DNA from: Solirubrobacterales bacterium
GTDB lineage: Bacteria; Actinomycetota; Thermoleophilia; Solirubrobacterales; 70-9
Reading direction: 5' to 3'
DNA: 41,747 nucleotides
Assembly: GCA_025964255.1 (NCBI GenBank)
Contig: JAOPZF010000230.1
Location: forward strand, 1-41,747
Under the pieces are notes generated by a model that was given only the letters and a program-made list of their open reading frames with translations, was not told the origin of the DNA and made no database searches. Made by a program: the position numbers and the translations under genes. Positions 2,577-34,696 of the stretch are shown here, piece by piece (the stretch's first letter is position 1; each line of letters starts with the position of its first letter).

Positions 2577-5500
2577 GTGCACCTTTATGTCCGGGAAACG
2601 GCGGGTCGCCTGCAGGGCGAGATCTCGGTCCCCGCGTCGAAGTACCACGCCCATCGGGCGCTGATGCTCGCGTCGCTGGCCGAGGGTGAGAGCCGCATCC
2701 GCGGCGGCGTCGCGGCGAAACACGTGCAGTCGACGATCGAGGTGCTGAACGGCCTCGGCACCGAGATCGAGCGGACGCCCGACGGCTTCGTCGTGCGCGG
2801 CAATGGCCTCCCCTACCGGCCGCTGCGCGACTCGGTCTCGGTCGGCTCCTCGGGCACGACGCTCTACTTCATGGTCGGGCTGGCCTCCCTGGCCGACGCG
2901 CCGGTCACGATCACCGGCCAGAAGTACTTCCAGCGCCGCCCGATCGGGCCGCTGCTGGAGGCGCTGCAGTCGACCGGGATCGAGCTCGAGTCGACCAACT
3001 CGACGCCGCCGATCACGGTCGCGCCGAAGCGCCCGCGCGGCGGCAAGGTTTCGATCGCCGGGACGCTCAGCCAGTGGATCTCGGGCCTGATCATGGTCGC
3101 CCCGTTCGCCACCGGCGCGACAACGATCGAAGTCGAGGGCACGCTGAACGAGCAGCCCTACGTCGAGCTGACCGTGAACATGATGCGGGACTTCGGCCTC
3201 GAGGTCGGCGTCGCAGACGACTGGCGCCGGTTCGAGATCGAGGGCAACCAGACCGCTCGCCCCGCCGACGTCACCCTGCCTCCCGACATCGGCTCGCTCG
3301 CCTTCGGCCTCGCCGCGACCTCGATCCACCCCTCCGACGTCTTCTTCCACGGCGTCCACGAGATCGACGGTGCCAGGGTCGACCACCCGGAGGCGCACTT
3401 CCTCGACGTCGCCGCCGCGATGGGGCTGCCGATGGAGCTCGACCGCGAGGCGGGTGGCGTCCGCGTCCGCCACGACGGGGTGCGCTTGCGCGGGGTCGAG
3501 ATCGACTGCCGGCCGATGCCCGACATGCTCCCGGTGCTCTCCACCATGGGCCAGTTCGCCGAGGGCGAGACCCGCTTCGTCAACGTCGCCCACGTGCGGC
3601 TGAAGGAGTCCGACCGCGTCGTCTCGATGCTGCAGCTGAACCGCATGGGTGGCGACGTCGAAGAGCAGGGCGACGAGCTGGTGGTGCGCGGGATCGACGG
3701 CGACCTCACCGGCTCCCCCCTCTCCAGCTTCAACGACCACCGCGTCCACATGGCGCTGACCGTCGCCGCCTCGCGGGCCCGCGGCGAGAGCTCGCTGACC
3801 TACCCCAACGCCTTCCGCATCTCCTATCCCGGCTTCCTCGACGACATGCGGGGGATCGGGCTCGACCTGGGGATTCAGGACGATCGCGAGCGGACCGCGG
3901 CAGGGGCCCCGGCGGGAGCGGGCGAGGCCGACTCGGGCCAACGGGCCGAGCAGTCGATCGCTGTCGACCAGGCGGCCGAGGTGCCGATCGTCGACTGGGT
4001 CGGGCGCTGGGTGGAGGAGCGGCCGGGCCAGGACGCGCTCGTCGACGTCCGCGCGAGCGGCACCCGGACCTGGACCTGGGAGGAACTCGACCGCGAGGCC
4101 GACAAAGCCGCGGCGGTACTGCTGGAGCTCGGGGTCGAGCCGGGCGAGACGGTCGCCTACCAGCTGCCGAACTGGGGCGAGTTCGTCATCCTGACGCTGG
4201 CCTGCATGAAGGTCGGGGCGATCTGCTGCGCCCTGATGCCGATCTTCCGCGAGCGCGAGATCGCCTTCGCGGTGCGCCGTGCGAAGGCGCGGGTGCTGGT
4301 CGTCGCCGACGAGTTCCGCGGGCGGAGGCACGCCGATGAGACGGCGACGATGCTGGTTTCTCAGGATGGCGCCGGGCCGCTCCCGGTCGAGCACGTGCTC
4401 GTCGTCGGCGCCGACGGCGCTCCCGTCCTGCCGAAAACCGAGGGCGCGCGCTGGCACGACTTCGCCGCGGCGCTCGCCGGCGCCGAGCCCGACCGGGCCG
4501 CGATCGAGGCGCGCAAACCGGCGCCGACGGCGCTGTCCCAGCTCTTCTTCACCTCCGGCTCGACCGGCGAGCCGAAAGGCGTGCTGCACCGCTACGACGC
4601 GCTCACCCGCGCGGCGATGATGGAGGTCGAGCACCTCGGCCTCGGCCGCGACGACACGGTCTTCATCCCCACCCCGCTCGCCCATCAGACCGGCCTGCTC
4701 TACGGGATGTGGCTGGCCTTCGCGCTCGGCTCGACCCAGGTGATCCAGGACGTCTGGGACGCCGGCGTCGCCGCCCGGGCGCTACGGGAGTGGGACGGCA
4801 CCTTCGTGCAGGCGGCGACGCCGTTCCTCGCCGACCTTGTCCGCGTGGTCGAGTCGGGCGAGGAGCAGGTGCCGCCGGCGCTGCGGATCTTCGTCGTCAC
4901 CGGCGCCGCGGTGCCGCGGGCGCTCGCCCAGCGCGCCACCACCGTCCTCTCGGCCGCCGTCTGCGGCGCCTGGGGCTCGACCGAGTCCTGCCTCGGCGCC
5001 CTCGCCGCGCCCGGCGACGACCCGGAGAAGGTCTGGGGCACCGACGGGCGGGCGCTCGCCGGCACGCGGATCCGGATCGTCGACGATGAGGACAACGTGC
5101 TCGGCCCCGGCGAGGAGGGCAACTACCAGGTGACCTCGCGCTGCCTCTTCGAGGAGTACCTCGACCGTCCCGACCTGACCGCGGCGGCGATGACGCCCGA
5201 CGGCTGGTACCGGACCGGCGACCTGGCGACGATCGACGCCGACGGCTTCCTCCGCCTCACGGGGCGGGTCAAGGACATCATCAACCGCGGTGGCGAGAAG
5301 GTGCCGGTCGCCGAGATCGAGCAGCTGCTCCACCAGCACGACGCGGTCGCCGAGGTGGCGATCGTGGCGATGCCCGACGAGCGGCTCGGCGAGCGCGCCT
5401 GCGCCTACGTCGTCCTCGATCCCGACTGGGCCGGCGAGTTCGGGCTCGCCGAGGTCCGCGCCCACCTCGACGCCGCCGAGGTGTCGAAGTTCTACTGGCC

Positions 5501-26713: not shown

Positions 26714-28423
26714 CTAAACGCCGCTCCCTTTCGATATTTCGATCCGCCGCGCCGCCTTGGTCTTCTTGTGGCGCACGACGCAGCGGCGCTCGCGGTTCTT
26801 CGCGTGCTTTTGCGCGGCGACACAGACGAGCTTGCGCACCTTCGCCTGCGCCTTCCGCGCCTTCTTCTTGGCCGCCTTGCCGGCCGACCCGCGGGCGCCA
26901 CGCTTGCCGGCGGGACCATTGGGACCAACCTGCCCGACCGGACCCGTCTCACCCGTCGCGCCGGCCACTCCCGTCGGTCGGCTGGGACCGGTCGCACCCG
27001 TCGCACCTTCGGGACCCTGTGGCCCGACCACGGTCGCGACCGGCGTCGCGCCGACCCGCAGGGCGATCACGTCGCCGAACGGCACCGGCTGTTCGGCGGC
27101 CACCGCTTCGTTGCCGCGGTCGAGCCGCAGCACCCAGCTCTGATCGGCATTTTCGGGACCCTGCCCGTTCAGCGTGGCGAGCTTCGAGCCTTCGTAGGAG
27201 AACGAGCCCACGCAGCCTTCCGGATAGCTCGGGAAGGCTGCCGCCTGGGCGTCGGTCAGCAGCGTCCCCAGCGACGCTCCGCTCGGGCCTTCGACGCTGC
27301 ACATCCGCACGACGCCGGAGGGGCCTTCGATCGCCAACTCGTGGGCGACCGGCGTGCCGTCGGCGACGATCGGCGCCGGGCGCAAGCTCGGCAGAGCCGC
27401 GTCTTCGCGGGGGGGTGGTTCGACCACGAAGCCGTCGCCGGCGAGCGCCAAGGTGGCGAAGGTCGAAGCGTAGAGGTTCGGCGTTTCGCCGACTTCGGAG
27501 GGGAAGCCGCCTTCGCCCGCCCCGGTCGGCGTCTGCAACGAGATCAGGTAGTCGAGCGGCGTCGAGCCGGTCAGCCGCCATTCGATCCCCTCGAGGTCGA
27601 CGCCGCAGGCGTTCATCCCCATCACCGCGATCGCGGTGCTTTCGGTGTTCGTCGCTTCGATCGCGCCGGTCCCCGGCTGCTTCTCCCCGTGCAGGTAGGC
27701 GACTCCCGCCTGCACCGCCGGGTCATAGCCCGGCACACCGGCCTCACAGAGCGCCGCCAGCACGATGCCGGTCGTTTCAGCTCGCGGGAAGCCGCCCGGT
27801 TCGGTCCAGCCGCCGTCGGGTTCCTGCAGCTCGCGCAGCTTGGCGATCGCCGGGGCGAGCGCCCAGCGCGGCGTCGCGCTGGTGACGAGGCCGAGCAGGC
27901 CGAGCGCGCTCGGCGTCGGGAACGCCGCGGCTTCGGTGCCGCCGAAGCTGCCCGTCACCTGGTTCCACTTGCCGGCGATCCGCGCGGGGAGGTTCACCGT
28001 CGCCGAGACGCGCGAGGTGTCGAGCCCCGCGGGGTGGGCGATCAGGGCAAGCCGCGACCATTCTTCGGGCGCGAACTGGGACGGCGGGCCGGCCAATTCG
28101 CCGGTCGGGCTACCGTATTCGACGCTGAGGAAGTCCTGCAGGCTGGGTCCGCCGTTCGTCGCGTCGGCGGCGTTGACGCCGACCGCGGCCAGCGCGATCG
28201 CCGACCAGTCGGCGCCGAACCGAGAGTGTTCGAAGGCGATGCCGCCTTCGGGATCGGACGGTTCACCGCTCTCCGCCACCTTGCCCTTCAGGTAGGTCTC
28301 GGCCTTCGCCTTCGCGGCTTCGATCTGCGCCGGCGTGGCGGCCGAGGCGAGCGCCGGGAGCGCGGCCAGGGCGAGCAAAGACAGTAAGAACACGGCCAGG
28401 CGGCCGGACGACGACACTCTCAT
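26714..28423 (-). CDS. secreted transcobalamin-like protein with collagen-like tail
   Basis: A 569-residue exported protein. Residues 1-28 are a signal peptide ending ALASA. Residues about 30-330 form an alpha/alpha-toroid with prenyltransferase/squalene-oxidase-type repeats (ATPAQIEAAKAKAETYLKG, EPDGGWTEPGGFP, VLAALCEAGVPGYD). A DUF4430/transcobalamin-C-like domain follows (VVRMCSVEGPSGAS, then WVLRLDRGN and PFGDVIALRV). About 17 Gly-X-Y triplets come next, with one break at GPSRPT, then a Lys/Arg-rich tail. There is no DxDD motif, so it is not a cyclase. Cysteines in LCEAG, NACG, MCSV and GCVG match those of the gene at 28897, indicating paralogy. A cobalamin riboswitch precedes it. I infer extracellular binding of B12 or a related corrinoid, with trimerisation through the collagen-like part. 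Confidence 0.8.
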   Translation of the reverse strand: MRVSSSGRLAVFLLSLLALAALPALASAATPAQIEAAKAKAETYLKGKVAESGEPSDPEGGIAFEHSRFGADWSAIALAAVGVNAADATNGGPSLQDFLSVEYGSPTGELAGPPSQFAPEEWSRLALIAHPAGLDTSRVSATVNLPARIAGKWNQVTGSFGGTEAAAFPTPSALGLLGLVTSATPRWALAPAIAKLRELQEPDGGWTEPGGFPRAETTGIVLAALCEAGVPGYDPAVQAGVAYLHGEKQPGTGAIEATNTESTAIAVMGMNACGVDLEGIEWRLTGSTPLDYLISLQTPTGAGEGGFPSEVGETPNLYASTFATLALAGDGFVVEPPPREDAALPSLRPAPIVADGTPVAHELAIEGPSGVVRMCSVEGPSGASLGTLLTDAQAAAFPSYPEGCVGSFSYEGSKLATLNGQGPENADQSWVLRLDRGNEAVAAEQPVPFGDVIALRVGATPVATVVGPQGPEGATGATGPSRPTGVAGATGETGPVGQVGPNGPAGKRGARGSAGKAAKKKARKAQAKVRKLVCVAAQKHAKNRERRCVVRHKKTKAARRIEISKGSGV

Positions 28424-28454
28424 CAAAAGTCCCTTCCTCGAGGATCTGACGAAG

Positions 28455-28610
28455 GGATCGGAGGGAGGTCTCCTGGCTTCCGAGCTTTCCCCCCGCGCCT
28501 TCCCGGCTCTCGCCAGTGGCCGCGCACACACGGTGCGCTGCGAGGGGCATCCTCGGTCACAGTGGCGGGACCGCGCCGGTTTTTCACCGGACTTCCCTGT
28601 CCACCGATCC
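28455..28610 (-). promoter_or_regulatory. cobalamin riboswitch A
   Basis: On the minus strand the element carries GGGAAGTCCGGTG, then CGGTCCCGCCACTGTGA (B12 box region), GCCACTGG, GCCGGGAAGGCG and GAAGCCAGGAGACC, all classic cobalamin-riboswitch blocks. P1 is GGATCGG (28604-28610) with CCGATCC (28455-28461). Downstream, TCCCTTC (28451-28457) can pair with the ribosome-binding GAAGGGA of the 26714-28423 gene, a plausible translational switch. The anti-SD strand partly overlaps P1. Confidence 0.92.
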
Positions 28611-28691
28611 GCTATTCGGTTTGTGGCGGGCAACCTAGCGGACATCCATCCGTCGCGCCGCCGATCCGCCGCCCGACCTACTACCTTGCTC

Positions 28692-28795
28692 GCGCCGACT
28701 GGTGAGGGAACCCGGTGTGAATCCGGGACTGACGCGCAACGGTGATGGGACTGGCTTACCGCCGCTCCCGAGTCCGAATGCTCGCCCGCCGGCGC
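28692..28795 (+). promoter_or_regulatory. cobalamin riboswitch B
   Basis: Compact actinobacterial form: GGTGAGGGAACCCGGTGTGA, AATCCGGGACTGACGCGCAA, CGGTGATGGG and GAGTCCGAATGCTCGCCCGC. P1 is GCGCCG (28692-28697) with CGGCGC (28790-28795). CCTTCT at 28843-28848 can pair with AGAAGG at 28881-28886, the ribosome-binding site of the gene at 28897. The architecture differs from riboswitches A and C. Confidence 0.88.
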
Positions 28796-28896
28796 AGACA
28801 TAAGGACCCCTGTTTCGCGAACGGACGGTCGGTCATCTCCCCCCTTCTGACAGGGACGAGGCGCCGCCGTCCCCCAATCCAGAAGGAGCTCCATTG

Positions 28897-30297
28897 ATGC
28901 GTTCCATGACCGCGCGGCTGGCAGTGCTCGCCGCGATCCTGGTCTCACTGGCGGTGCCGACGATGGCCTCGGCGACGGTGAGCACGACCGAAATCAACGA
29001 ATCGCTCAGCAAAGGCGTCACCTACCTGAAGGGCCTGCAGTCCGAAGCCAACGGCGAAATCGCAGGCTTCGGCGGCGATTGGTCGCTTACCTCGCTGGCC
29101 GCCGCCGGCACCGCCGCGACCGACGTCAACAAATCCGGCATCGCGGGCCGCGACGCGCGCAGTTGGTACGAAAGCGTCGTCGGCGCAGCGGGCTGGCCCT
29201 CGGGCGGGCTCTCAACCGACTACGAGCGCGGCGCCCTCGACGCCTACGCGGCCGGTATCGATCCGGCCCGGATCTCGAAACGGTCGAACCTGCTCGCCGG
29301 CGTCGCGGGCTCCTACCAGCCCGCGAGTCCGGGCTACTACGGCGAAACGTTCAACGGGACCGTGTTCGGCCTCCTCGCCCTCGCCGACGTGAAGACGACC
29401 GCCGGGGTCAAACGGTTCCCGGCCAAGGTCTACGAAGGGGCGATCGCCGCGATCGAAGCCAACCAGCACACCGACGGAGGCTGGACCTGGCAGAAAGTCG
29501 CGGGCAACGAAACGGCGCTGAAAAGCGCGTCCGAACCGGACCTGACCGGGGCCGCGATGGCTGCCCTCTGCGACGCCGGCGTTCCCAACACCGCGACGAC
29601 GATCACCGAGGCGAAGGCCTATCTGGTGTCGATCTTCGAAAGCAAAACCGGGGCGTTCAAATCGGAATTCGGCAACAACACCGACTCCACCGCCTGGGCG
29701 GTCGACGGCCTGAAGGCCTGCAAGATCGATCCGCAGGGCAGTGAATTCACCGGCGCGGCGCCGGCCAAAAAGACGCCGCTGAACTACCTGATCAGCCAGC
29801 AGATCGCCAGCGGCACCGGCGCGGGCGGGTTCAAATACTCGACCGCCTCGACCGCCGAAGAGTACGCGAGTCAGGATGCGATCCGCGCCCTCGGCAGCGG
29901 CAGCTTCACCGCGGTCCCGCCGGTGCCGAAAAGCGGCGAACAGTGGCACGGCGTCAAATCCTTTGGCACGGTCGCGGGCGAAACCGACTCGTTGGCGCTA
30001 GTGATCGAAAAGGGCTCCGAACCGCTGAAGGTGTGCTCGGTGACGGTGAATCCGGAAGCAACGACGATCCCGCTGTCGAAGGTCCTCGACGCGGCCGTCG
30101 CCGGCGGCAGCAAACCGTCGGCGTGCGTGACCAGCTACCTGCCGAGCAGCGGCACCGGCGCGATCACGCAGGTCAACGGCGCGCCGAGCACGGCCGAAGC
30201 GCGCTGGAAGATCGGCATCGACGGCGGCGCCCTGGCGACCGCCGAACGCGGCACGACGATCCACGTCGGCGACACGATCTACCTGAAGTTCGAATAG
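28897..30297 (+). CDS. secreted transcobalamin-like protein
   Basis: A 466-residue exported protein: signal peptide 1-26 ending TMASA, an alpha/alpha-toroid from about 30 to 350 (YLKGLQSEANGEIAG, ANQHTDGGWTW, GAAMAALCDAGVP, STAWAVDGLKACKID), and a C-terminal DUF4430/transcobalamin-C-like beta domain from about 365 (LKVCSVTVNPEATT, RWKIGIDGGALA, HVGDTIYLKFE). The order toroid then beta domain is that of human transcobalamin and intrinsic factor. The ATG at 28897 follows AGAAGGAG by eight bases; a TTG one codon earlier is possible. Riboswitch B controls it. It is divergent from its paralogue at 26714. It lacks the collagen-like tail and any membrane anchor. Corrinoid binding is inferred. Nearly all Glu codons are GAA. 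Confidence 0.82.
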   Translation: MRSMTARLAVLAAILVSLAVPTMASATVSTTEINESLSKGVTYLKGLQSEANGEIAGFGGDWSLTSLAAAGTAATDVNKSGIAGRDARSWYESVVGAAGWPSGGLSTDYERGALDAYAAGIDPARISKRSNLLAGVAGSYQPASPGYYGETFNGTVFGLLALADVKTTAGVKRFPAKVYEGAIAAIEANQHTDGGWTWQKVAGNETALKSASEPDLTGAAMAALCDAGVPNTATTITEAKAYLVSIFESKTGAFKSEFGNNTDSTAWAVDGLKACKIDPQGSEFTGAAPAKKTPLNYLISQQIASGTGAGGFKYSTASTAEEYASQDAIRALGSGSFTAVPPVPKSGEQWHGVKSFGTVAGETDSLALVIEKGSEPLKVCSVTVNPEATTIPLSKVLDAAVAGGSKPSACVTSYLPSSGTGAITQVNGAPSTAEARWKIGIDGGALATAERGTTIHVGDTIYLKFE

Positions 30298-30308
30298 CCC
30301 CGAGGAAT

Positions 30309-30342
30309 CGCCCGCTCGCCGGTCTGGGCGGGCGGGCGGTTT
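30309..30342 (+). terminator. terminator-like hairpin
   Basis: CGCCCGCTCGCC at 30309-30320 pairs with 30327-30338 through one wobble, followed by GTTT. It lies just after the gene ending at 30297 and before riboswitch C, so the next operon probably has its own promoter. Confidence 0.6.
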
Positions 30343-30380
30343 CCGGCCGCGCCCCGAGCGTCTATGCTGCGCGGCCAAGA

Positions 30381-30536
30381 GGATCGGTGGACAGGGAAGT
30401 CCGGTGTGAAACCGGCGCGGACCCGCCACTGTGATCGAGCGCAGACCCCCCGTCGCAGTCATCGCGACAGCCACTGGCCCAGAAGCCGGGAAGGCGCGCC
30501 GGGGAGCTCGTCAGCCAGGAGACCTCCCTCCGATCC
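30381..30536 (+). promoter_or_regulatory. cobalamin riboswitch C
   Basis: Same length (156 bases) and same P1 (GGATCGG/CCGATCC) as riboswitch A, with GGGAAGTCCGGTGTGAAACC, GACCCGCCACTGTGA, GCCACTGGCCC, GCCGGGAAGGCG and GTCAGCCAGGAGACC. It is followed 36 bases later by the start at 30573. GCCCT near 30550 may pair with the AGGGGC that includes the ribosome-binding site. A and C look like duplicates. Confidence 0.93.
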
Positions 30537-30572
30537 GTGAACGTCGATCGCCCTCGCGGAAAGGGGCAAGGC

Positions 30573-32042
30573 ATGCGGATACGCAATCTCTTCGCGACGC
30601 TCTGCGTCGCAATTTCAGCTCTACTCGCGCTCACCTCGGTGGCCGGAGCGGCCCCAATCACCGTCAACGTGCGGATCGAGGGGGCAACCGAAACGCTGTT
30701 CGAAGGGCCGATCTCGGCGACCGCTCACGGTGTCAAAGCGAGCACCGACACGCAGGAACGCTCCTGCGACGGACTCAACTCGCTCGACCCCTGGAACACC
30801 GCCGCAGGCGTCACCCCGACCGCCTCCTCCGTCGACGCGATGTCGCTGATCGGCGAAAGCTTCGACGGCAAGTGGTACCCCGGCTTCAACGACTACTTCC
30901 TCAGCCGATTCGGCCCCGACGCGGAAAAAGAAGGGAGATCCTGGGGGATCCTGGTGAACAACACTTTCACCAACGTCGGCGGCTGCCAGTACCAGCTCGA
31001 CGAAGTCGACGAAGTGCTGATGGTCTTCAACGCCTTCGATTTCCGACCCTTCCTGGCGCTGTTTCCGGCGGCTGCGAACTACGCCTCCGGCCCGCGGCCG
31101 CTGACCGCGACGGCGACGCTGGGCCAGCCGTTCGAAGTCGAAGTCGCCTCCTACGAAGACGACGCCGAAGACGTCCCGCCCGACCACCCGGAGCGGACCG
31201 GCTCGACCGGCTTCGCGGGCGCCGACGTCTCGCCGGTCACCACCAACCCCATCAACGGCTTCGAGAAAGTCGACGTAGAAGATCAGGCCACGGTCGAAAC
31301 CGACTCGCACGGCAAGGCGTCGATCACCTTCACCACGCCGGGTTGGCACCGGATCAAGGCGACCGTGCCCGGCGCGACCGAAGAAGAAGCGATCCGCTCC
31401 AACCGGCTCGACGTCTGCATCGAAGGCAGTGGTGGCCAGCCGCTCGAAGGGGCGACCGAGTGCAGTGAACTGCCTGCCGCCGACCAGGTGCGGGTGCCGC
31501 AGGCGACCATCGAAGCGCCGGCCAGAGAACAGAAAGAACACGAAGCGCAAGAAGCGCAGAGACAGGAAGAACGCGAAGCGCGGGAAGGGGCGGAACGCAA
31601 AAAACGGGAAGCCGCCGAACAAGCCACGCGGGATAGAGAGGCGAAAGAAGCGGCCGAAGAGGCCGCCGCGAGCGGCACCGGGAAATCTTCGCTGCCGCCG
31701 GCCCCGCAGCCTCCCGCGATCGGTTCGACTCCGACGCCCGGCGCGCTCCGCGTGAGCGTCCCGAAGGTCGACCCGAAGCAACTGAAACAGGGGAAGGTCG
31801 CGCTCGCCTGGAAGGTGGTCGAAGCCGGCGCCGGGGTGAAGAGCTGGACGATCAGCTCGCAGTCGCTCGGCGCCAAGAAGGCGCCTTACGTGAAGCGGGC
31901 GAGCGGCTCGACCGCGACCTCGGCCTCGCTGAGGCTGCCGCCCGGTTCCTATCGCCTGCGGTTCGCGGTCACCGACGCCCGCGGGCGGACCTCCAACGTG
32001 ACGATCGGCAAGGTCGTGGTGCCCGGTGGCGGCCGCGGCTGA
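30573..32042 (+). CDS. secreted DUF4430 protein with charged helical spacer
   Basis: A 489-residue exported protein: signal peptide 1-26, then a DUF4430/transcobalamin-C-like domain (ITVNVRIEGATETLFEGP, SWGILVNNTFTNVGGCQY, DEVDEVLMVFNAF), an Ig-like beta region to about 300 (KASITFTTPGWHRIKATVPG), a Glu/Lys/Arg-rich helix around 320-385 that is probably a coiled coil, a Pro-rich joint and a final beta domain (GSYRLRFAVTDARGRTSNV). There is no toroid. The start is ATG at 30573 behind AAGGGG; a GTG at 30537 falls inside the riboswitch end. The following toroid gene overlaps it by 17 bases. A two-part receptor, DUF4430 here and toroid next door, is a reasonable inference. Confidence 0.8.
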   Translation: MRIRNLFATLCVAISALLALTSVAGAAPITVNVRIEGATETLFEGPISATAHGVKASTDTQERSCDGLNSLDPWNTAAGVTPTASSVDAMSLIGESFDGKWYPGFNDYFLSRFGPDAEKEGRSWGILVNNTFTNVGGCQYQLDEVDEVLMVFNAFDFRPFLALFPAAANYASGPRPLTATATLGQPFEVEVASYEDDAEDVPPDHPERTGSTGFAGADVSPVTTNPINGFEKVDVEDQATVETDSHGKASITFTTPGWHRIKATVPGATEEEAIRSNRLDVCIEGSGGQPLEGATECSELPAADQVRVPQATIEAPAREQKEHEAQEAQRQEEREAREGAERKKREAAEQATRDREAKEAAEEAAASGTGKSSLPPAPQPPAIGSTPTPGALRVSVPKVDPKQLKQGKVALAWKVVEAGAGVKSWTISSQSLGAKKAPYVKRASGSTATSASLRLPPGSYRLRFAVTDARGRTSNVTIGKVVVPGGGRG

Positions 32043-33726
32043 GCGCCGTCACGCCCGCCGCCGCCGCGCGGCGCTGATCGCCGCGGCGCCGGTGGCGATC
32101 CTCCTCATCGCGGCGCTGGTCGGCGGCGCCCGCGCCGAAACGCCGAGCGGCCGCTACCAACCGACGCTCGATCGCCTGGTCGCCTTCCTGCAGCGCGACC
32201 AGAACGCGGACGGCGGCTTCGGTGGCGAAGCGGGCTCTCCCTCCGATCCCGACTTCAGCGCCTGGGTCGCGCTGGCGCTCGCGGCGGCGAGCGTCAATCC
32301 CCACGACCAGAAGCAACCGGGTGGAGTGGACGTCTACACCTACCTCGCCGAACACGCCGAAGAACTGAAAGTGACGACCGACTTCGAGCGCGAACTGATG
32401 GTCGTCAACACGGCGGAATACCCACCGCAGCGGCTCGGTGGCATCAACCTGGTCGAACGGGTGCTCGAAGCCCGCATCCCGAGCACCGGCGCCTTCAGTC
32501 ACAACCTGGGCGGGACGACTCCGGGAATGAACGACACGATCTTCGCGATCCTGGCGCTCGCCCCGATCAAGGAACCGGCGATCGAAGGGGACGTGCACGA
32601 AGCGGCCGAATGGGTGATCTCCGAACAGAACGCCGATCGCAGCTGGCCCTCTTGGTGTCCGAAATCGGTCTGCGGACGAAACGGCAAAGACCCGCAGGAC
32701 TCGACCGATATGACCGGCGCGGCTCTCGAGGCGCTGAACGCGGCGGGCATGCACGACACCCCGGCGCAGGCAGCGGCGCTCGAATACCTGAAGGAAGCCC
32801 AGCTCCCCGACGGCGGCTGGCCGCAGGCGATCGGCGAAGCGGAATCGAACGTCGGCTCGACCGCCTGGGTCTGCCAGGGAATCTGGGCGGCGGGGGGCAA
32901 TCCCGAAAACTGGGTCTCCGAAGGCGGCATCGAACCGCTCGGCTACATGGCCTCCCTGCAGCAGCCAGACGGTCACATCCGCTACATGAAGAGCCACGAC
33001 CTCAACGGCGTCTGGATGACCGCCTACGCGGGGCCGGCCTACGCGGGCCAGTACAAACCGATCCCCGAGGCCGCGCGATCGGTGCCCCCGGAACCGCAGC
33101 CCGAAACGGGCGAGCTTGGCACGGCGCCGACCCAGACCGGCACCGAACAGAAGGGCGAAAACGAAGGCTTCAAGCGCGGCGAGGGCGTGACCGCGGGCGG
33201 TGGCGGCGATGGCGCGCCGCTGTTCAGTCGGCCGAAACCGCAGAGCAAGGGCAAGACGCCGGGCGGGGCGCGGGTGGTGCGACGACAAAAGCTCGAGGCC
33301 CTGGACCACAGCCACAACCGCCGTGGCGCCAACCAGCACCAAGCGAGGGGGACCGAGAAAGTTGAACCGCGGGAAAGATCGGAAGCCGACCAGGAAGTCG
33401 CGGCGGTGAGCTCCACCCCGGCGGGTGGCGGCGAAGGCGGTGGCGGCGGTAATGAAGGCCCGGGGCCGGGCGCCAAGGGCGCGCCGCTGCCGGTCAAGGG
33501 CGGCGCCAAGGGCGATCCGACCGGTGGACACGAAGAGGTCAGCGGCACCGTGATCGGCTCGCCCCACGGGACCCACGGCAAGCTCGCCTTCGGCGCGCCC
33601 GGTTTGAAGAGCGCCGGCGGCGGTGGCTCCAACGGCCTCGGCGCGGCGATCGCGATCGGCATCGCCGCCCTCCTCGCGGCCGGTCTTGGCGCCGGCTGGG
33701 AACAGCGCCGCGGGAGGCTCGCGTGA
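32026..33726 (+). CDS. membrane-anchored alpha/alpha-toroid protein
   Basis: A 566-residue surface protein. N-terminal arginines and a hydrophobic stretch (ALIAAAPVAILLIAALVGG) form a signal or signal-anchor. Residues about 40-340 contain toroid repeats: LQRDQNADGGFGGEAG, ISEQNADRSWPSWCP, STDMTGAALEALNAAGM and EAQLPDGGWPQAIGEAES. No DxDD motif, so not a terpene cyclase. A low-complexity Gly/Pro/Lys-rich stalk follows, then a C-terminal membrane helix (LGAAIAIGIAALLAAGLGAG) and a short basic end, so the toroid faces outside. It starts with GTG inside the upstream DUF4430 gene, and its stop overlaps the next start (GTGA). Probable surface receptor of the B12 system; ligand binding is inferred. 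Confidence 0.8.
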   Translation: MAAAAERRHARRRRAALIAAAPVAILLIAALVGGARAETPSGRYQPTLDRLVAFLQRDQNADGGFGGEAGSPSDPDFSAWVALALAAASVNPHDQKQPGGVDVYTYLAEHAEELKVTTDFERELMVVNTAEYPPQRLGGINLVERVLEARIPSTGAFSHNLGGTTPGMNDTIFAILALAPIKEPAIEGDVHEAAEWVISEQNADRSWPSWCPKSVCGRNGKDPQDSTDMTGAALEALNAAGMHDTPAQAAALEYLKEAQLPDGGWPQAIGEAESNVGSTAWVCQGIWAAGGNPENWVSEGGIEPLGYMASLQQPDGHIRYMKSHDLNGVWMTAYAGPAYAGQYKPIPEAARSVPPEPQPETGELGTAPTQTGTEQKGENEGFKRGEGVTAGGGGDGAPLFSRPKPQSKGKTPGGARVVRRQKLEALDHSHNRRGANQHQARGTEKVEPRERSEADQEVAAVSSTPAGGGEGGGGGNEGPGPGAKGAPLPVKGGAKGDPTGGHEEVSGTVIGSPHGTHGKLAFGAPGLKSAGGGGSNGLGAAIAIGIAALLAAGLGAGWEQRRGRLA

Positions 33727-34382
33727 TCGCCGCCTCGGTTGACCTCGGCGACGGCCTCTCCCACATCGCGACCGCGCTCCGAGTGCCGGTGCTGATCGCC
33801 GCAGTCGTTATCCTCATCCTCTGCGCGCTCGAGTGCGGTCGCTTCGCGGTCGAATGGTGGCGGCGCCGGCGCAATCGCCGGTTCGACCTGCGGCAGGTAG
33901 TCGCCGAGGCGATCGCTGAACCCTCCCACGCCGCTCACTATGCGCGGTACGCACGCAGTCCGATCACCGCTCGCGCGGTCCTCGCGATCGCCGCCGCGCC
34001 ACCGGCCGAACGCACCCTGGCGACGGAGCGGGCCCTGGTCGACTACGAGCTCGCGGTCGAGCGCAGCCTCGACCGCACCCGGCTGCTCGTCCGCGCCGGT
34101 CCGGCGATCGGGCTGATGGGAACGCTGATCCCGCTGATCCCCGGGCTGGCGGCGCTCGCCGGCGGCGACGTCGGCACCCTCGCGAACGATCTGCGCGACG
34201 CCTTCGGCGCGACCGTCGTCGGCCTCCTGGTCGGCACCGTCGCCTTCGCCCTGACGCTGACCCGGACGCGGATGTTCACCGAAGACCTGGCCGGGCTTGA
34301 GCAGGGGAGCGCGGTCGCGGCACCGGCCGCGCCCGCGGACGCCGGACCGGCATTCGAACCTCGTCCGGGGCTGGCGGGATGA
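33723..34382 (+). CDS. MotA/TolQ/ExbB-family proton channel protein
   Basis: A 219-residue membrane protein: one N-terminal helix (VLIAAVVILILCALECGRF), a cytosolic helical loop, then two helices containing GPAIGLMGTLIPLIPGLAAL and AFGATVVGLLVGTVAFALTL, the MotA/TolQ/ExbB signature. Such proteins use ion flow to drive motion or transport in complex with an ExbD/TolR partner. It starts with GTG overlapping the upstream stop, and its own stop overlaps the DUF2149 start (ATGA), so the two are tightly coupled. No TonB or outer-membrane receptor is present here. The role of energising corrinoid uptake or receptor cycling is a hypothesis. Confidence 0.88.
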   Translation: MIAASVDLGDGLSHIATALRVPVLIAAVVILILCALECGRFAVEWWRRRRNRRFDLRQVVAEAIAEPSHAAHYARYARSPITARAVLAIAAAPPAERTLATERALVDYELAVERSLDRTRLLVRAGPAIGLMGTLIPLIPGLAALAGGDVGTLANDLRDAFGATVVGLLVGTVAFALTLTRTRMFTEDLAGLEQGSAVAAPAAPADAGPAFEPRPGLAG

Positions 34383-34696
34383 GCCGGATCGGCCTCGGCC
34401 GCCACCGCCGGATCGAAGACAACGCGGGCGACCCTCTTGACGGCCTCGTCAACCTCTTCGATGTCGGCATGATCCTCGCGATCGCCTTCCTGATCGCGGG
34501 CCTCGGCATCACCCTCAACCTGAAAACCGACAAGTTCGAAGCCCGCCAAGGCAAGCGCGCGAGCGGCAAGTCAAAGGTGATCCAGAGTCCCTCGCACGCA
34601 CCGAAAGCGAGCGGCCGCGGCGTCCCCGTCGGCCAGGTCTACCGCCTCCCCGACGGCCGCCTCGTCTACGTCAAGCACGGCCGCAGTTCGCGGTAG
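34379..34696 (+). CDS. DUF2149 protein, ExbD-like
   Basis: A 105-residue protein with a short cytosolic N-terminus, one membrane helix (about 27-46, FDVGMILAIAFLIAGLGITL) and an outward basic C-terminal part ending VGQVYRLPDGRLVYVKHG. Asp28 stands at the start of the helix in the order L-F-D-V-G-M-I-L, like the proton-carrying Asp of ExbD/TolR (L-I-D-V-x-x-x-L). DUF2149 genes commonly neighbour MotA/TolQ/ExbB genes. It is the last gene of the riboswitch C operon. Confidence 0.82.
   Translation: MSRIGLGRHRRIEDNAGDPLDGLVNLFDVGMILAIAFLIAGLGITLNLKTDKFEARQGKRASGKSKVIQSPSHAPKASGRGVPVGQVYRLPDGRLVYVKHGRSSR

Follow-up and report, generated by a model that had tools for sequence, protein, structure and literature searches.

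Transcobalamin-like capture of corrinoids has been predicted in bacteria before. Burroughs et al. (2007; PMC1796856) described bacterial proteins that join a toroid to an SLBB domain, the transcobalamin C-domain, and have CbiO/CbiQ-like operon neighbours; their hosts usually lacked B12 synthesis enzymes, and B12 scavenging was proposed. A cobalamin transporter of the energy-coupling factor (ECF) type, ECF-CbrT, has been described from Lactobacillus delbrueckii (PMC5997447). In the heme operons of Bacteroidota, an ExbB-family protein, HmuU, is followed by a DUF2149 protein, HmuV, in two-membrane cells that also have a TonB-dependent receptor and the CobN-like HmuS (PMC10100974, PMC10434189, PMC13227078); HmuU/HmuV have been likened to ExbB/ExbD, and a 2023 study described HmuY, HmuT and HmuV as apparently diagnostic for the transport of heme (PMC10100974). 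Here we present a locus of six genes, P1 to P6, and three predicted cobalamin riboswitches in contig JAOPZF010000230.1 of a Solirubrobacterales bacterium (assembly GCA_025964255.1), which probably forms part of an importer joining transcobalamin-like capture to an ExbB-DUF2149 pair. The window analysed is this entire contig of 41,747 nucleotides (C143 in our numbering), one of 277 in an assembly of 4.0 Mb with a completeness of 90.9% and a contamination of 6.5%.

An initial annotation of this DNA had proposed three cobalamin riboswitches, each preceding a gene for a toroid protein with a C-terminal DUF4430 domain. The number and class were borne out, since all three elements exceeded the Rfam gathering score of 31.5 bits for RF00174 and so did not score as non-cobalamin; a response to cobalamin is predicted on this basis. 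The element before P1 (28452-28633, minus strand) scored 74.0 bits over model positions 1-189, with the full core matched; a short one before P2 (28683-28803, plus strand) scored 36.3 bits, the peripheral part of the model being unmatched; and the third (30363-30545, plus strand) scored 72.1 bits with the full core matched. The proposed placement held for P1 and P2 only, as the third riboswitch precedes P3 and the run P3-P4-P5-P6. Elsewhere in the same genome RF00174 has a single further match, on contig C178.

For comparison, 80 named loci were scanned, all from Actinomycetota, the best named relative being a Solirubrobacterales metagenome-assembled genome; 75 of them had calls for both ExbB and DUF2149 (the exceptions being L065, L084, L115, L118 and L134), and Rfam was run on 27 of the 80. 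The pairs L053/L067, L054/L064 and L051/L066 were each taken as one locus present in two collections. RF00174 was found at all eight named loci with a P3-type gene and was missing from all eight controls (L076, of the window's own clade, and seven loci of the other ExbB clade), which bears out the claim of cobalamin control. At seven of the eight P3-type loci, a head-to-head pair of riboswitches lies between the gene for a toroid plus C-domain protein and P3; in L060, two matches adjoin other genes. The first Rfam scan set gave matches in 10 of 19 relatives' loci and none in the rest (L058, L059, L061, L063, L065, L068, L070, L072 and L073), and five of ten further loci scanned had one.

The genes of P1 (26714..28423, minus strand) and P2 (28897..30297, plus strand) stand head-to-head with a riboswitch ahead of each, and both encode exported proteins. 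Predicted structures of P2 match transcobalamin-type carriers for the N-terminal alpha/alpha toroid (about residues 30-335); the C-domain (about 364-466) was folded separately, because matches of the whole P2 fold test the toroid alone, and it matches the beta-grasp domain of the transcobalamin clade. Alignment supports the same type for the C-domain of P1, which is 35% identical to P2 and aligns with it in this region. The two-domain claim thus stands by fold for P2 and by alignment for P1, but Pfam reports DUF4430 in neither: P2 has no Pfam match at all, and P1 has Collagen (5.6e-8) and, under the cut-off, SQHop_cyclase_C (0.0082). Compared by sequence with DUF4430 lipoproteins, the C-domains reached 2% in hhalign, and it was the fold that settled the assignment. 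Similarly, the best 60 of 66 matches of a P1/P2 profile to PDB sequences contained no transcobalamin and consisted of cyclases, prenyltransferases and similar proteins, together with collagens. Transcobalamin-like capture, which the initial annotation had suggested, is nevertheless well supported by the predicted fold; the binding of a corrinoid is itself a prediction. The collagen-like tail of P1 (26714-27060) has a counterpart in the relative L051 (13587-15740) and may anchor the carrier in a surface layer.

The genes of P3, P4, P5 and P6 overlap end-to-start behind the third riboswitch. P4 (32026..33726, plus strand) is an exported toroid protein, which passes the Pfam cut-off for SQHop_cyclase_C (2.2e-13), is matched by P1/P2-type toroids in hhalign (99.9%, E 1.5e-37) and ends in a single C-terminal membrane helix, in agreement with its earlier description as a membrane-anchored toroid. 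The linker motif GGGG..AP.F(S/T)RP occurs in 15 P4-type rows, or 12 without the three duplicate loci. A P4 profile found no transcobalamin among PDB sequences, its matches being cyclases, prenyltransferases and similar proteins. P3 (30573..32042, plus strand) is exported and DUF4430-like; its open reading frame extends from 30537, but the start is probably the ATG at 30573, because the longer frame overlaps the riboswitch. The earlier claim of a separate DUF4430 protein is upheld by relatives and a weak profile match (39% probability, E 3e-4, against DUF4430 lipoproteins in hhalign), while Pfam places DUF4430 under its cut-off (E 0.039). P3 shares 35-58% identity with eight P3-type rows, and 27% with a C178 protein; its profile met weak immunoglobulin-type rows and no transcobalamin entry among PDB sequences.

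The annotation had also noted that no ECF transporter is present, which is correct within the window but does not hold for the assembly. On C178, behind the fourth riboswitch, lie genes for an exported protein with a sub-threshold DUF4430 match (0.0025), a protein with DUF4430 (4.4e-12) and a lipoprotein-type signal, EcfT, a double EcfA and a fusion of S component and toroid. The C178 EcfT and EcfA were named by similarity to genes of L054, whose EcfT passes CbiQ; the S component, at 27.6 bits, is under the ECF_trnsprt cut-off of 30.7, and that of L170 passes ECF-ribofla_trS (33.3 against a cut-off of 26.7). Here and below, EcfA, FecCD, Tup and MetH are names given, where Pfam support is lacking, by similarity or by reading of the sequence. 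An ECF module behind a cobalamin riboswitch therefore exists in this genome, its transport of cobalamin being predicted from gene content.

Relatives carry both kinds of gene together. In Patulibacter minatonensis (L054/L064) and Patulibacter sp. (L053/L067), one riboswitch-led, co-directional run reads P3, P4, DUF4430 lipoprotein, EcfT, EcfAA, EcfS, ExbB, DUF2149, so that in both genomes the ECF genes separate the toroid gene from those of the motor. In L170 and L173, from another family of the class, the order is riboswitch, P3-place protein, DUF4430 lipoprotein, EcfT, EcfAA, EcfS, toroid, ExbB, DUF2149; L063 has EcfT, EcfA, EcfS, ExbB and DUF2149, and no riboswitch, the available contig beginning just before EcfT. 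From these gene orders, the window and C178 appear to be the two parts of a single type of system, and a reading of the locus as a system devoid of an inner-membrane transporter is not supported. Riboswitch-led loci with this motor occur in the named isolates Patulibacter minatonensis DSM 18081 and Conexibacter arvalis DSM 23288. No match to the DUF4430 lipoprotein emerged from a search of plasmids, and gene calling was poor in L171.

The wider genome is consistent with scavenging by a cell with one membrane. CbiC (PF02570) has no match in it, as against matches in 20 of 101 genomes, and neither has FecCD, which was matched in 13 of 14 control genomes; BtuC is here presumed to belong to the FecCD family. 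Four B12-binding-domain matches are present and, by reading, include MetH and mutase parts. In an assembly 91% complete, the absence of a gene is not proof. Omp85 was matched neither in this genome nor in any of 61 genomes, and a TonB-dependent receptor was matched in one of the 61 and not in this one; both results fit a single membrane.

The last two genes make up the putative motor. P5 (33723..34382, plus strand) is a channel subunit of the ExbB/TolQ/MotA family (MotA_ExbB, PF01618, 1e-8), and P6 (34379..34696, plus strand) is a DUF2149 protein (8.4e-11) with one membrane helix, proposed to be ExbD-like; both matches are above the Pfam cut-off and confirm the earlier calls. The GLMGT motif is kept in 83 of 86 ExbB rows, and the DUF2149 residue after NLF, which hhalign sets against the membrane aspartate of ExbD, is acidic in 95 of the 96 rows that fit the search pattern (both sets contain the duplicate loci), in line with the possibility, raised earlier, of a proton-driven element. 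Of 14 more DUF2149 rows that did not fit, L104, L107, L110 and L111 begin past the motif and the others read NLFD by eye. The P6 family reaches only 32% against ExbD/TolR in hhalign, P6 has no ExbD row in Pfam, and the DUF2149 and ExbB profiles found nothing among PDB sequences, neither an ExbB nor an ExbD entry.

In 42 of 52 cases (47 of 75 by a looser count), the product of the gene directly before ExbB has just one membrane helix, at its C-terminus; the same holds for 22 of 849 other genes (Fisher 3e-46, related loci being counted as independent). A glutamate lies near the end of that helix in 39 of the 42. The product in question is the P4 toroid at cobalamin loci, save in L063, L064 and L067, where it is the S component; at other loci it is often a PKD-domain protein (7 of 10 scanned), beside FecCD-like or Tup-like importers. 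In a tree of 86 ExbB rows, the clade that contains the window has 24 rows, of which 15 are labelled cobalamin, and it is separate at full support; nested within the other side is a further clade of six rows, four of them with this label, which also covers loci with a toroid and no ECF gene. From gene order and conserved residues, we infer a motor role for P5 and P6.

Several loci add variants of this arrangement. L071 (5504-7513, Patulibacter sp.) has tandem ExbB-DUF2149 pairs after the toroid, with a riboswitch between EcfS and toroid, and in L061, L065, L068 and L076 a window-type ExbB stands a few genes from a distant toroid-like protein, with no riboswitch. In L073 (7786-13949, Patulibacter americanus), toroid, ExbB and DUF2149 are followed by a fused protein resembling a heme-use enzyme, a FecCD-like permease and an ATP-binding cassette (ABC) ATPase, again with no cobalamin riboswitch; toroid motors may thus serve iron or heme too. 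In L175 (G172:C81; 1308-2336 and 3409-7237), the ExbB-DUF2149 pair adjoins methylamine-type methyltransferase-like genes and corrinoid proteins, possibly a further corrinoid link of the pair, and Rfam matches PYLIS_3 (pyrrolysine) at 4294-4393.

We consider it probable that these genes specify a corrinoid importer of ECF type under riboswitch control, equipped with transcobalamin-like carriers and with a receptor arm linked to a motor; the window would be its outer half. The exported carriers P1 and P2 would hold a corrinoid between the toroid and the beta-grasp domain. P3 and the DUF4430 lipoprotein-type protein of C178 would pair with the anchored toroids, those of P4 and of the S component on C178, as a "split transcobalamin" at the membrane, which would receive ligand from the carriers and hand it to the ECF transporter for ATP-driven import; the products of the two contigs would thus cooperate. 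P5 and P6 would make up a motor powered by protons; by holding the C-terminal helix of P4, it would set the toroid in motion, either to strip ligand from the carriers or to open the sandwich of toroid and DUF4430 domain. A broader proposal, which we judge somewhat less likely than not, is that single-membrane Actinomycetota own a family of proton-driven receptor motors, each composed of ExbB and an ExbD-like DUF2149 protein. Such a motor would drive an exchangeable extracytoplasmic arm anchored by a C-terminal membrane helix, and would deliver ligands to importers of ECF or ABC type in the cell's one membrane. The arm would be a toroid for corrinoids and a PKD-domain protein at iron-type and tungstate/molybdate-type loci.

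The strongest alternative, which we nonetheless judge unlikely, is the 2007 prediction, ordinary ECF uptake of B12 assisted by surface proteins resembling transcobalamin; ExbB and DUF2149 would then be mere neighbours that serve something else. Capture and ECF genes do occur apart from a motor: plasmid CP117684.1 of Latilactobacillus curvatus encodes a toroid-like protein, a DUF4430 protein, EcfT, EcfA and an S component in a row, and neither ExbB nor DUF2149 was found in L188 and L189, two stretches in which EcfS and toroid form one fused protein. The P4 toroid profile, moreover, matches 186 of 349 genomes of the class, and DUF2149 only 50 of the 349. Against a chance neighbour stand the overlapping genes of P4, P5 and P6, the order toroid-ExbB-DUF2149 in two well-separated ExbB clades, the motor genes closing the same riboswitch-led run in L170 and L173, and the recurrence of the single C-terminal helix before ExbB in other loci.

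Less probable still is that the cargo is not B12 itself but a corrinoid precursor, for example cobinamide, or a metal tetrapyrrole of another kind, which the motor frees from a chelator or carrier. Precursor salvage is plausible because CbiC has no match in this genome; DUF2149-ExbB pairs accompany heme genes in Bacteroidota (PMC10434189, PMC10100974) and stand with CobN and cobalamin genes on a Trichlorobacter plasmid, and the toroid motor set of L073 adjoins a FecCD-like importer. The position of the window's genes behind cobalamin riboswitches speaks against it, though a riboswitch does not tell which form is imported. That the toroids are secreted terpene cyclase-like or sugar-active enzymes is highly improbable, given the transcobalamin-type C-domain fused in P2, the cobalamin riboswitches and the lack of DxDD in 22 of 24 toroids tested (P4-type rows over their first 380 residues), and class II terpene cyclase function was rejected for P1, P2 and P4 in the stretches tested, all of which lack the motif.

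The favoured importer would bring together two things: B12 capture of transcobalamin-like kind alongside an ECF importer, and a motor of ExbB type in bacteria that lack outer-membrane genes. A motor type best known from two-membrane bacteria, in an apparently single-membrane host, suggests an unexplored way of powering vitamin uptake and, if the broader proposal is true, would mean force-driven nutrient import without an outer membrane. It bears on two published views, that of incomplete Ton systems in monoderms, Actinobacteria included, as likely non-functional (a 2025 survey, PMC12204202), and that of HmuV as diagnostic of heme transport (PMC10100974); both can be tested in the Patulibacter and Conexibacter isolates named above, because these carry such loci. 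A bacterial split transcobalamin is also relevant to the origin of animal B12 carriers. In openly licensed papers, nothing relevant was found on SCO2321-SCO2325 or on transcobalamin-like proteins with riboswitches, nor were the combination, the C-terminally anchored arm or the single-membrane setting.

Of the components, capture with an ECF transporter is a known prediction, because of the proteins of Burroughs et al. and the Latilactobacillus curvatus row, and the DUF2149 pair is a known part, because HmuU/HmuV were likened to ExbB/ExbD and the pair is found on the Trichlorobacter lovleyi plasmid pGLOV01. That plasmid (L192) encodes a TonB-dependent receptor, DUF2162, ExbB, DUF2149 and CobN, then a regular ExbB-ExbD-TonB set, with cobT and BzaF also in the region; it thus holds two different motors in one cobalamin gene cluster. 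With the 2007 system the present locus shares two-domain exported proteins, a second SLBB protein, CbiO/CbiQ-like neighbours, hosts that as a rule lack enzymes of B12 synthesis, and a predicted role in B12 scavenging; that clade, in the available text (PMC1796856), is mainly of low-GC Gram-positives, planctomycetes and some archaea and ExbB is not named, whereas the present locus, from Actinomycetota, adds cobalamin riboswitches, a toroid that is anchored and the pair of ExbB and DUF2149. The L. curvatus toroid, uncalled by Pfam and found through its similarity to P4, is LPXTG-anchored, and on its plasmid no ExbB or DUF2149 is annotated and RF00174 has no match. ECF-CbrT likewise has an ECF module and an S component for cobalamin, but no toroid, DUF4430 or motor partner is named in the available text (PMC5997447), while the S component here either is itself fused to a toroid, as on C178, or has a separate toroid beside it. 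In contrast to Hmu, the ExbB-DUF2149 pair here occurs in B12, iron-type and tungstate/molybdate-type loci.

ExbB-ExbD-TonB and TolQ-TolR-TolA have in common with the window's set a channel-family subunit, a one-helix acidic subunit and an anchored extracytoplasmic arm with a flexible linker. TonB and TolA, however, are anchored by the N-terminus and the arm here by the C-terminus, among relatives that lack Omp85 and have a TonB-dependent receptor in one of 61 genomes. Finally, transcobalamin, intrinsic factor and haptocorrin share their domain order and both folds with P2, and differ from P1 and P2 in that these are bacterial, are 10-20% identical to them in the aligned rows and, in P1, bear a collagen-like tail.

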